Source of the DNA: Pirellulales bacterium
Lineage (GTDB): Bacteria; Planctomycetota; Planctomycetia; Pirellulales; JADZDJ01
Length of the DNA: 32,525 bases
NCBI GenBank assembly: GCA_035499655.1
Contig: DATJYL010000012.1
Location: 1-32,525 of the forward strand
Reading direction: 5' to 3'
Positions 1,527-29,569 of the stretch are shown here, in pieces (position 1 is the stretch's first letter; each line of letters starts with the position of its first letter). Position numbers and translations under genes: made by a program. The notes below the pieces were generated by a model. It worked only from the letters and a program-made list of their open reading frames with translations. It did not search any database and was not told where the DNA came from.

Positions 1527-1640
1527 TAGAGATCGTCTCACGATCATGTAGCGGCCCCGGCGCGCCGGGGTCCCCAGCCGCTGAGGATCCCGGCGCGCCG
1601 GGACCACTATATCCGCTACACGTTCGTGGGATGCGCTCTA
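1527..1640. repeat. Palindromic dispersed element, copy A (TAGAG...CTCTA ends)
   Basis: This 114-base GC-rich element starts TAGAGATCGT and ends GATGCGCTCTA, giving 5-base inverted termini. Inside are nested dyads: an outer GTAGCGG/CCGCTAC pair and two GGCGCGCC-centred hairpins. Copy C at 3559-3662 is nearly identical over its first 60 bases and last 30 bases. The right terminus (CTA on the plus strand) is the TAG stop codon of manA. The strong hairpins sit just after manA and could act as a transcription stop or RNA-stability element, but there is no T-run. Confidence 0.75.
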
Positions 1641-2609
1641 AGGCAGATAAATATCCAGCACCGTGGCGGATTGTTTGGGGGTCAGCAGGCAAGGCGCCAG
1701 CGCGGCCGGCAAAAGCATGGTTTGGCCGCGCGCTAGCGGCGCGCCGGATGGATCGCCCGCCGCCTCAATTTCTCCCTCAATCACCGCCACAAGATGAAAC
1801 TGCCCGTCGCCGCCGACAGGTTCCGGCCGGCTGAACCGCCAGCGATCGAGCACGAACTTGTCGCACGTCACCAGCCGCTGCACGTGCGGCCGCTCCGTCG
1901 GCCGCGGCGACTGCGGTGTTAACGGTCCCAGCTTGTAATCAATGGCGGCCAGCGCCTGATCGACGTGCAGGGGTCGCGGCCGGCCATCGGGGCCCAGGCG
2001 GTTCCAATCGAACAAACGGAACGTGGCGTCGCTGGATTGTTGAATTTCGGCAATGACTAACCCCGCTCCCAATGCATGAACGGCCCCAGCCGGCAGGAAC
2101 AAGCAATCGCCCGGCTGAGGTTGAAAACGATACAAACACAATTCGCAGGCGCCGCGCTGCACTTCGCGTTCCAGGGCATGCCGATCGAAGCCGCGCTTCA
2201 GCCCGGCATAAATCACGCTGCCCGGCTCGGCGGCCAACACCACCCAGGCTTCGGTTTTGCCGAAGTCGGGCGGGTTCAGCCGGGCTGCTTGTTCATCGTC
2301 CGGATGCACCTGGACTGACAGCGTTTTTTCGCAATCCAAGAATTTGAACAGCAGCGGAAATCGCGGCTGCGGATGATGTCGTCCCAATAGCTCCAGGCCG
2401 TGTGCCTGCATCAATTCGTTCAGCGAAGTTCCGGCCAAGGGTCCGGCTGCCACGCGGCTTTGATCGGCCGCTCGATCGACCACTTCCCAGCTTTCGGCGT
2501 AATCGTTCCCTTCGCCCAGGGGCTTGCCCAACAGCGTGCCCAACTTGCGGCCGCCCCATAGGTAACGGCGCAACAGCGGTTCAAAGCGTAAAGGGTACAG
2601 GGGGGCCAT
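1638..2609 (-). CDS. manA: Mannose-6-phosphate isomerase, type I (short, Bacillus-like form)
   Basis: It interconverts mannose 6-phosphate and fructose 6-phosphate in the cytoplasm, linking glycolysis to mannose-containing glycans. The 323-residue length fits the short bacterial class I enzyme. Zinc ligands of the cupin fold are visible: Gln100 and His102 in SVQVHPDDE, Glu120 in KTEAW, His178 in PAGAVHALG. The substrate-side motif ATFRLFDWNR (about residues 195-204) is also present. I chose the ATG at 2609 (MAPLYPLRF) because the family begins with a PL.F.P.....WGG pattern; an upstream start at 2651 would add 14 poorly conserved, His-rich residues. The TAG stop lies within the end of a dispersed palindromic repeat. 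Gene context does not suggest an operon with the next gene beyond simple co-direction (45 bases). Confidence 0.93.
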   Translation of the reverse strand: MAPLYPLRFEPLLRRYLWGGRKLGTLLGKPLGEGNDYAESWEVVDRAADQSRVAAGPLAGTSLNELMQAHGLELLGRHHPQPRFPLLFKFLDCEKTLSVQVHPDDEQAARLNPPDFGKTEAWVVLAAEPGSVIYAGLKRGFDRHALEREVQRGACELCLYRFQPQPGDCLFLPAGAVHALGAGLVIAEIQQSSDATFRLFDWNRLGPDGRPRPLHVDQALAAIDYKLGPLTPQSPRPTERPHVQRLVTCDKFVLDRWRFSRPEPVGGDGQFHLVAVIEGEIEAAGDPSGAPLARGQTMLLPAALAPCLLTPKQSATVLDIYLP

Positions 2610-2654
2610 GTCGGGTATTGTTCGATGGTGAATGTGGTGCCCGCCGATCATGCC

Positions 2655-2825
2655 TTACTGCCGCGCGTAGCCTTCCAAAATGCGGCCGATCCAAAACGCC
2701 GACACCGCCGCCACGAGCATCAACAACATTTGTCCCAGCGTAATGGCCCCTTGTAGTTGCAGCACGATCGACAAGGGAGGCAACACCAATCCGACAATTT
2801 GCAATAAACGGCCAAAACTTGCCAT
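2655..2825 (-). CDS. Small membrane protein, unknown function
   Basis: A 56-residue protein with two likely membrane helices: residues 8-25 (LQIVGLVLPPLSIVLQLQ) and 29-46 (GQMLLMLVAAVSAFWIG), ending in a short basic tail. It lies 45 bases upstream of manA on the same strand. The frame stays open further upstream to 3113, but that extension runs through palindromic repeat copy B and lacks any protein-like character, so the ATG at 2825 is preferred. No good ribosome binding site is visible, which lowers confidence. The protein family is not recognised. Confidence 0.55.
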   Translation of the reverse strand: MASFGRLLQIVGLVLPPLSIVLQLQGAITLGQMLLMLVAAVSAFWIGRILEGYARQ

Positions 2826-2890
2826 GGCGAAGGTCCGGGCCAAAGTGGATGGTTCGATGTGTGCCGGTCGACCGGCGGAATCCAGGGCGC

Positions 2891-2979
2891 ATTTAAGCCG
2901 TTGTAGCGGTCGCTGTCGCCAGCGACCTACAAGCTGCTGCGGACAGCCGGCGCTACATTGACAAGGGATGCGCTCTAAA
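2891..2979. repeat. Palindromic dispersed element, copy B (diverged)
   Basis: This is a diverged relative of copies A and C. It keeps the right terminus GGGATGCGCTCTA and the GTAGCGG start of the dyad, but its hairpins differ (for example TGTAGCGGTCGCTG pairing with CAGCGACCTACA). The left terminus is not clearly conserved (TTTAAG instead of TAGAG). It lies in the divergent gap between the small membrane protein gene and the DUF983 gene. Confidence 0.55.
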
Positions 2980-3033
2980 AGGTCCTGCAAAACCAGCGGA
3001 TTGTCATCATAATGTGCTGGGGACAATCGTGCC

Positions 3034-3561
3034 ATGAGCCTACCAAATTCCACTCTGCCGCCCGACGATCCAATTCGCCAGCCCGCCGCAGACGCTTGCG
3101 CACCGACCGGCAAAAATATCGATTCTGCCGCTGGTGTTCACCCCGCCGCAGCGAGTTCGCTCGTGACGCTGTTGTGGCGGGCCGTTCGCCTGCGCTGCCC
3201 GGTTTGCGGCCAGGGGAAATTATTTCGTGGCTGGTTCACCATGTACCCGCGCTGCGAGCAGTGCCACTTTCGCTTCGAACGCAGCCCCGGTTATTGGTTG
3301 GGGTCGATTTTCGTGAACTACGGGCTCACGGCGCTGATTGTGACCGCGGCCTATTTTGCACTGTTCTTCACCGAAGCGCTGCCGCCAGACTGGATCATGC
3401 GTTTGCTGTTGGCTTTTTGCCTGTTGTTTCCGCTGTGGTTTTTTCGCTATGCCCGCGGCATTTGGATCAGCGTCGATTTGTATTTCGATCCTGAGCCGGC
3501 GACGAAACTTGTGTCGGCCAAAAAAGCGGAAACCTCAGCTTCATCTCCACCGCAAGTTTAG
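3034..3561 (+). CDS. DUF983 family zinc-ribbon membrane protein
   Basis: The 175-residue protein has a Pro/Ala-rich head (1-45), then a zinc-ribbon with two Cys pairs, CPVC (55, 58) and CEQC (74, 77), in the DUF983 signature RCPVCGQGKLFRGWFTMYPRC. Two membrane helices follow (about residues 88-113 and 119-140). DUF983 proteins are often encoded beside cytochrome oxidase genes, and this gene converges on the end of such an operon here, so a link to oxidase biogenesis is plausible but inferred. Its TAG stop is formed by the first three bases of palindromic repeat copy C. Confidence 0.85.
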   Translation: MSLPNSTLPPDDPIRQPAADACAPTGKNIDSAAGVHPAAASSLVTLLWRAVRLRCPVCGQGKLFRGWFTMYPRCEQCHFRFERSPGYWLGSIFVNYGLTALIVTAAYFALFFTEALPPDWIMRLLLAFCLLFPLWFFRYARGIWISVDLYFDPEPATKLVSAKKAETSASSPPQV

Positions 3562-3662
3562 AGATCGTCACACGATCATGTAGCGGCCCCGGCGCGCCGG
3601 GGTCCCCAGCCGCTGAGGACAGCGGCCACTACATCCGCTACACGTTCGTGGGATGCGCTCTA
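3559..3662. repeat. Palindromic dispersed element, copy C (TAGAG...CTCTA ends)
   Basis: This 104-base copy sits in the convergent gap between the DUF983 gene and the last gene of the respiratory operon. It has the same ends as copy A (TAGAGATCGT and GATGCGCTCTA) and the same left hairpin. The central part is shorter: the second GC hairpin of copy A is replaced by CAGCGGCCACTAC. The first TAG is the stop of the DUF983 gene, and the other end lies 8 bases from the stop of the 3671-4093 gene. A role as a two-way terminator is possible. Confidence 0.75.
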
Positions 3663-29388: not shown

Positions 29389-29433
29389 CAATTCCTGGTG
29401 GTGGGACAATTTGAAATTCCGACAGGCGCTTTT

Positions 29434-29452
29434 CCCGACTGACACAGTCGGG
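29434..29452. terminator. Perfect 8-bp hairpin after the methyltransferase gene
   Basis: CCCGACTG (29434-29441) pairs perfectly with CAGTCGGG (29445-29452) around the loop ACA, 45 bases after the methyltransferase stop. A TTTT run precedes rather than follows it on the plus strand, so it is not a standard intrinsic terminator for the methyltransferase; it may mark an RNA end or be a repeat element. Confidence 0.4.
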
Positions 29453-29569
29453 CTATGTTCAAATTGGCCCACTACCCAATTCCTTGGCGACTTGCATCTG
29501 ATAGTAATGGCCCTTACGATGAAAAATTCCCTAACGAATTCAGAAAATCGAATACGACGAGAACACCCC

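Follow-up and report, generated by a model that had tools for sequence, protein, structure and literature searches.

A gene-less element of about 105 bases, with MITE-like ends around a pair of REP hairpins, appears to have moved around a planctomycete genome

Three related hairpin-rich elements, here called copies A, B and C, lie within 2.2 kb of the window, a stretch of 32,525 nucleotides that makes up contig C12 of a draft planctomycete genome (G000; 4.54 Mb, 244 contigs). We consider it probable that the three copies belong to a small MITE family with a REP/BIME core, the ends of which are read in trans by a DDE-type transposase that duplicates a TA target. By such a mechanism, the 28-bp ends would be read by a trans-supplied enzyme of the IS630/Tc1 or IS5/IS427-like kind, the element would enter a Y-TA-R site, and the TA would be duplicated. 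Read in frame, a YTAR site contains a TAR stop; because the element begins with G, its insertion there would rebuild TAG at the same codon and leave the protein unchanged, which would make stop codons safe sites. The core would be a REP pair belonging to a RAYT family of which G000 retains only a broken gene; its multiplication would now be passive, within MITE shells, and shells would be exchanged when the cores that they have in common recombine.

Table. Elements, their parts and adjoining genes in the window (G001 is a congener of the source genome)
Feature	Position	Strand	Evidence
Copy A, intact 114-bp element with TAGAG...CTCTA ends	1527-1640	+	similarity search; empty counterpart in G001
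Copy A, left inverted end, TAG-N17-TGTAGCGG, which includes the small palindrome GATCGTctcACGATC	1527-1554	+	
Copy A, right inverted end, TAGAGCGCATCCCACGAACGTGTAGCGG read on the - strand	1613-1640	-	
Copy A, REP unit 1, GTAG tag and GC hairpin	1546-1573	+	match to model R1
Copy A, REP unit 2, inverted	1585-1612	-	match to model R1
Copy B, degenerate relative, left boundary uncertain	~2883-2977	+	copy B absent from G001
Copy B, two inverted REP units	2901-2928; 2931-2958	+; -	
Copy C, intact 104-bp element	3559-3662	+	copy C absent from G001
Copy C, REP unit 1	3578-3605	+	match to model R1
Copy C, REP unit 2, inverted, with hairpin GCCGCTGTCCTCAGCGGC in place of that of copy A	3607-3634	-	match to model R1
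End sequence of the TAGAG shell, TAGAGCGCATCC			
manA-like phosphomannose isomerase gene (start of longest ORF), TAG stop within right end of copy A	1638-2651	-	
DUF983 gene, TAG stop (3559-3561) within left end of copy C	3034-3561	+	
IS1-type MITE, 80 bp, 18-bp inverted ends	29397-29476	+	

The first-pass annotation had described three related elements in this interval, and copies A and C are indeed real, with exact TAG...CTA bounds at the coordinates that it gave. Both enclose nested GC hairpins and are alike except for the second internal hairpin and a handful of bases. Copy B is a degenerate relative, the right end of which (GGGATGCGCTCTA) is identical and intact and the left end of which has decayed, and its span is shifted from 2891-2979 to that in the table. 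RNA folding gave z-scores of -10.0 for A, -4.3 for B and -4.7 for C, all far better than shuffled sequence. The search of the whole genome that had been proposed at the first pass returned additional copies on other contigs. Full copies lie on C88, C46, C213 and C116, with E-values between 1e-31 and 1e-45, and C66, C183 and C142 carry truncated or diverged ones. G000 holds six intact copies, either 104 bp (n = 4) or 114 bp (n = 2) long and 95 to 97% identical inside each length class, as well as four that are degenerate or chimeric. The presence of the copies is far from chance.

Relatives had also been proposed as a place to look for empty sites, and in the congener G001, where gene order is kept at 76 to 77% nucleotide identity, sites A, B and C are all empty. 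The empty sites indicate that the element moves and is not a terminator fixed in place; the copies are neither confined to the window nor conserved in position, the two outcomes that had been named as favoring a fixed terminator. It is therefore highly improbable that the elements are fixed transcription terminators or mRNA-stabilizing hairpins of manA and DUF983, a reading suggested by their placement where two genes end (3′) and by the very high stability of their hairpins but opposed by the vacant sites amid the same gene order, by the dispersed copies elsewhere, and by the lack of a T-tract or any terminator-like site at the elements. The empty G001 sites and the missing T-tract together rule out a fixed terminator, and the hairpins may well act as terminators or mRNA stabilizers after insertion. 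A structured RNA of known kind was also rejected, as no Rfam family came near its gathering score. We conclude that the dispersed copies and empty congener sites bear out the earlier suggestion of a small nonautonomous mobile element and that, judged by sequence comparison, a gene-less unit of about 105 bases appears to have moved around this genome.

The outer shell has the makeup of a MITE. Its ends are imperfect inverted repeats 28 bp long (TAG-N17-TGTAGCGG, 22 of 28 positions identical), and the element is short (104 or 114 bp, where MITEs are below 300 bp), carries no transposase gene, occurs as dispersed near-identical copies, and has empty sites in a relative. A contig pattern scan located the shell end in one other published planctomycete MAG, HKST-UBA20 (G029 by matching loci), where most of the 16 pattern matches belong to a 94-bp MITE with the same TIR and an unrelated interior. 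A related end was found by pattern scan in a third family of the order. We conclude that there is a strong case for the shell being a MITE.

Target choice was read from 17 TAGAG-shell insertions in two genomes (6 in G000 and 11 in G029). The base before the TA was a pyrimidine in 16 of the 17 and the base after it a purine in every one (P ~2e-9). The single non-YTAR insertion, L144 (G029:C256), has A before the TA. TA flanks both sides of all intact copies, and the G001 ortholog, at 76 to 77% identity, has a single TA at site A. At locus L076/L148 (G029:C447), two TA-type MITEs lie head to tail with one TA in common; the second has the ends TAGAGCGTATCTCA...TGAAATGCGTTCTA and represents a further family. 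No target duplication longer than TA was found at TAGAG-shell insertions. A 4-bp YTAR duplication was rejected, as the two sides do not have the same outer bases (CTAG/CTAA at A and TTAG/CTAG at C), and IS1-type mobilization of the TAGAG shell was rejected because there is no 8-bp duplication. Together, the YTAR flanks, the lack of a longer duplication, the shared TA in G029 and the single TA in G001 indicate that TA is likely duplicated on insertion, as read from the flanks and one ortholog. The sites agree with the TA target, with CTAG preferred, of the IS630/Tc1-mariner group. Within that group, ISY100 duplicates its TA target (PMC2170065), and a preference of IS630 for TA in CTAG is given by the title of Tenzen and Ohtsubo 1991, cited in the same paper.

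No autonomous element with TAGAG-shell ends was found among the DDE_3, DDE_Tnp_1, PF13340 and Y1 genes of the genomes searched, which are draft MAGs, from which multicopy ISs are often lost to assembly gaps. Neither draft G000 nor G029 contains an IS630 DDE_3 (PF13358) transposase or one with PF13340, the N-terminal domain of the IS5/IS427 type, and the DDE_Tnp_1 and Y1 genes that are present have no matching ends around them. IS630, IS5/IS427-type (PF13340) and general DDE_Tnp_1 genes were each rejected as the partner, as none with matching ends was found in these drafts, and because PF13358 is missing from both genomes, the element is not filed as IS630-derived. An autonomous partner is usual for a MITE but not required, and many MITEs have none that is known.

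The shell encloses two inverted GTAG-tagged hairpins. A census of REP units by covariance model R1 counted 67 in G000, 45 in G001 and 0 in the family member G002, and, in 17 more distant genomes, one marginal match in each of two. A RAYT gene in G000 (C80:8904-9380) matches NF047646 (95.6 bits; cut-off, 80), is broken by an in-frame TAA, and has R1-type BIMEs, that is, inverted REP pairs, on either side. The best relatives of this RAYT are 41 to 44% identical to it, and the nearest is flanked by TGTAG hairpins of its own. No copy of the C80-type RAYT was detected in G001, though REPs are present there. The core has the features of a GTAG REP/BIME, namely, tag and hairpin, inverted pairs, many copies, and a RAYT flanked by the same repeats. 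Based on the census, the RAYT flanks and the hairpins of the relative, we conclude that the core is a RAYT-type REP/BIME family and that the link between RAYT and core is strong.

A linked REP-type transposase had been listed at the first pass as something to look for, and the RAYT supplies it. The likeness to a single REP-type element holds in part, as a RAYT linked to the hairpins exists in the genome, but two kinds of element are combined here and the RAYT explains the core only. It is conceivable, though improbable, that a RAYT (HUH Y1) moves the whole 104- to 114-bp unit as a REP/BIME-type element, with the outer ends as an extra stem joined to the REP pair. The GTAG-tagged inverted hairpins and the linked RAYT are in keeping with such movement, as are the composite REP structures of Pseudomonas putida and P. 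fluorescens and the TAG stops that GTAG termini give to ORFs (PMC3733652). The outer ends, however, are missing from the BIMEs at the RAYT and recur without a REP core in another family (G029), so the element as a whole fails as a RAYT-linked repeat. Moreover, HUH transposition is not known to leave a target duplication, whereas the flanks show a TA target, and the only RAYT of the family is broken, yet six copies are 95 to 97% alike per length class.

The REP core of A and C also occurs in other shells. In both G000 and G001 it is found inside IS1-type MITEs with 8-bp TSDs, the shells of which end in GGTAGTGGGTCAGTTTGA or GGTCGTCGCYTAATTTGA. An 8-bp duplication accompanies the GGTAGTGGG and GGTCGTCGCC shells but not the TAGAG shell; it reads ATAATTCG at L217, and at L119 TGTTCATC flanks a MITE of the IS1 type. 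Longer elements with the first IS1-type end (GGTAGTGGGTCAGTTTGA) encode IS1-like transposases, which fall below the curated cut-off of the NCBIfam IS1 model and, in L113, lie above the cut-off of Pfam DDE_Tnp_IS1. One locus, L209 (G000:C142:2200-2700, at ~168-264), joins an IS1-type left end to a TA-type right end around the shared REP core, and no target duplication was found at this chimera. Such a structure would arise if shells were exchanged through recombination in the core.

The window itself contains an IS1-type MITE with a like composite build, at 29397-29476, around which a perfect 8-bp duplication, CAATTCCT, lies at 29389-29396 and 29477-29484. Its interior is a REP of a different RAYT family, matching the repeats around the RAYT gene L059 (contig C145), and ends like its own number at least about 20 in G000. 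Two loci of G001, L126 and L128, are IS1-type MITEs in which the interior, a GGGTGGCTGGGGTCGA... palindrome, differs again, being the third sort seen, which suggests many hairpin cargos. Two longer elements of 2.8 to 3.3 kb, L112 (G001:C135, 296-3575) and L113 (G029:C288, 329-3116), have IS1-type MITE ends and an IS1-like transposase together with passenger genes that were assigned by eye as HTH/ImmA-like and Fic-like. Passenger genes are unusual for IS1.

Both overlaps with gene ends reported at the first pass were seen, as copy A lies at the manA stop, which is the CTA at 1638-1640 (TAG on the - strand) and the right TA of the copy, and the left end of copy C is the DUF983 stop. The stop codons were thought to be donated by the element, but insertion instead re-forms a stop whose TA was already in place. 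In G001, manA stops at the corresponding codon (LDIYLP*), which is TAA there and TAG in the window, and thus the TA preceded the insertion. An in-frame YTAR is a pyrimidine-ending codon followed by TAA or TAG, and because the left copy of the target reads TA plus G once the element is in, TAG is restored.

Each empty site was rebuilt, and ORFs were called alike for all sites by simple ORF calling. Stop codons account for 9 of the 16 YTAR insertion sites, or 10 if L158@2778 is counted, a site cut by the locus end. At L002, a 168-amino-acid frame ends at the element but is dropped by simple gene calling and was not counted as a stop. The expectation, taken as the stop share of other noncoding YTAR sites nearby, is 14 to 21% (P = 6e-4 to 6e-3), and stop codons are overrepresented relative to those sites with an odds ratio of 4.8 to 7.6. 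None of the 17 insertions lies inside a called gene. We conclude that the excess at stop codons is real, in what is a small sample of 17 sites with simple ORF calling.

Whether the excess at stops reflects mere survivorship is, in our judgment, evenly balanced: a random YTAR inserter without targeting could leave the same pattern if insertions into genes and promoters were lost. Called genes are free of insertions though about half of the nearby YTAR sites are genic, and few YTAR sites in GC-rich DNA are harmless, the TA of a stop being one of them; survivorship would fit with both. Stops are enriched, however, even over other noncoding YTAR sites, a comparison with small numbers that allows for losses within genes only. 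Survivorship is compatible with the MITE-shell explanation and bears only on why stops are common. A more tentative proposal, which we think possible but doubtful, is of a modular system: REP pairs of the RAYT would pass as cargo between the unrelated TA-type and IS1-type shells by core recombination and so outlive the RAYT, and one shell would have evolved ends (TA plus G) that allow it to settle at stops without altering the protein, with a stop preference that is real and not the product of survivorship.

Each half of the element has known counterparts. RUP of Streptococcus pneumoniae, a 107-bp MITE of IS630-Spn1, is likewise gene-less with short inverted ends and TA termini and target, but its sequence is unrelated, its partner IS is known, and the paper describes no REP core (PMC2229807). 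BOX of the same species supplies the stop at the extreme 3′ end of 36 genes, with no clear truncation, according to the passages on BOX in PMC3049150; unlike the present element, it is modular (boxA/B/C), and those passages note no link with REP or RAYT. Of the Tc1/mariner elements IS630 and ISY100, the latter duplicates a TA target, as proposed here, and the former prefers TA in CTAG, but no transposase of that family was found in draft G000. GTAG REPs, BIMEs and REPtrons share with the core the GTAG tag, the hairpin, the inverted pairs, and a RAYT bordered by the same repeats; GTAG REPs are already known from planctomycetes, and REP termini often provide TAG stops (PMC3733652). The pair described here differs in being wrapped in two unrelated types of MITE end, and its copies would move with MITE-type target duplications. 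In the composites of P. putida and P. fluorescens, GTAG-1 is joined to an unrelated stem-loop repeat and multiplied in the genome, as here, but those composites flank the RAYT gene itself, whereas here the partners are MITE ends with targets of their own, TA or 8 bp (PMC3733652). Our search of the literature for REPs carried along in MITEs brought up nothing closer than these composite units. We conclude that a TA-inserting MITE family with a GTAG REP pair is a new combination of two known kinds, a RUP/BOX-like MITE and a GTAG REP.

How REPs persist after loss of their RAYT is a standing question. In G000, where the RAYT is broken, REP pairs are kept inside MITEs that transposases other than the RAYT could mobilize, and the same pattern in G001, where the C80-type RAYT was undetected, makes such a hitch-hiking route testable. 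The geometry of YTAR and TAG would also give a simple physical reason why small repeats, such as BOX and GTAG REPs, so often supply stops. Finally, G000 has six Y1_Tnp genes (L055-L060), at least five of which are flanked by inverted palindromes of their own that differ from gene to gene, and from these palindromes we conclude that several REPtron-like units coexist in this genome.
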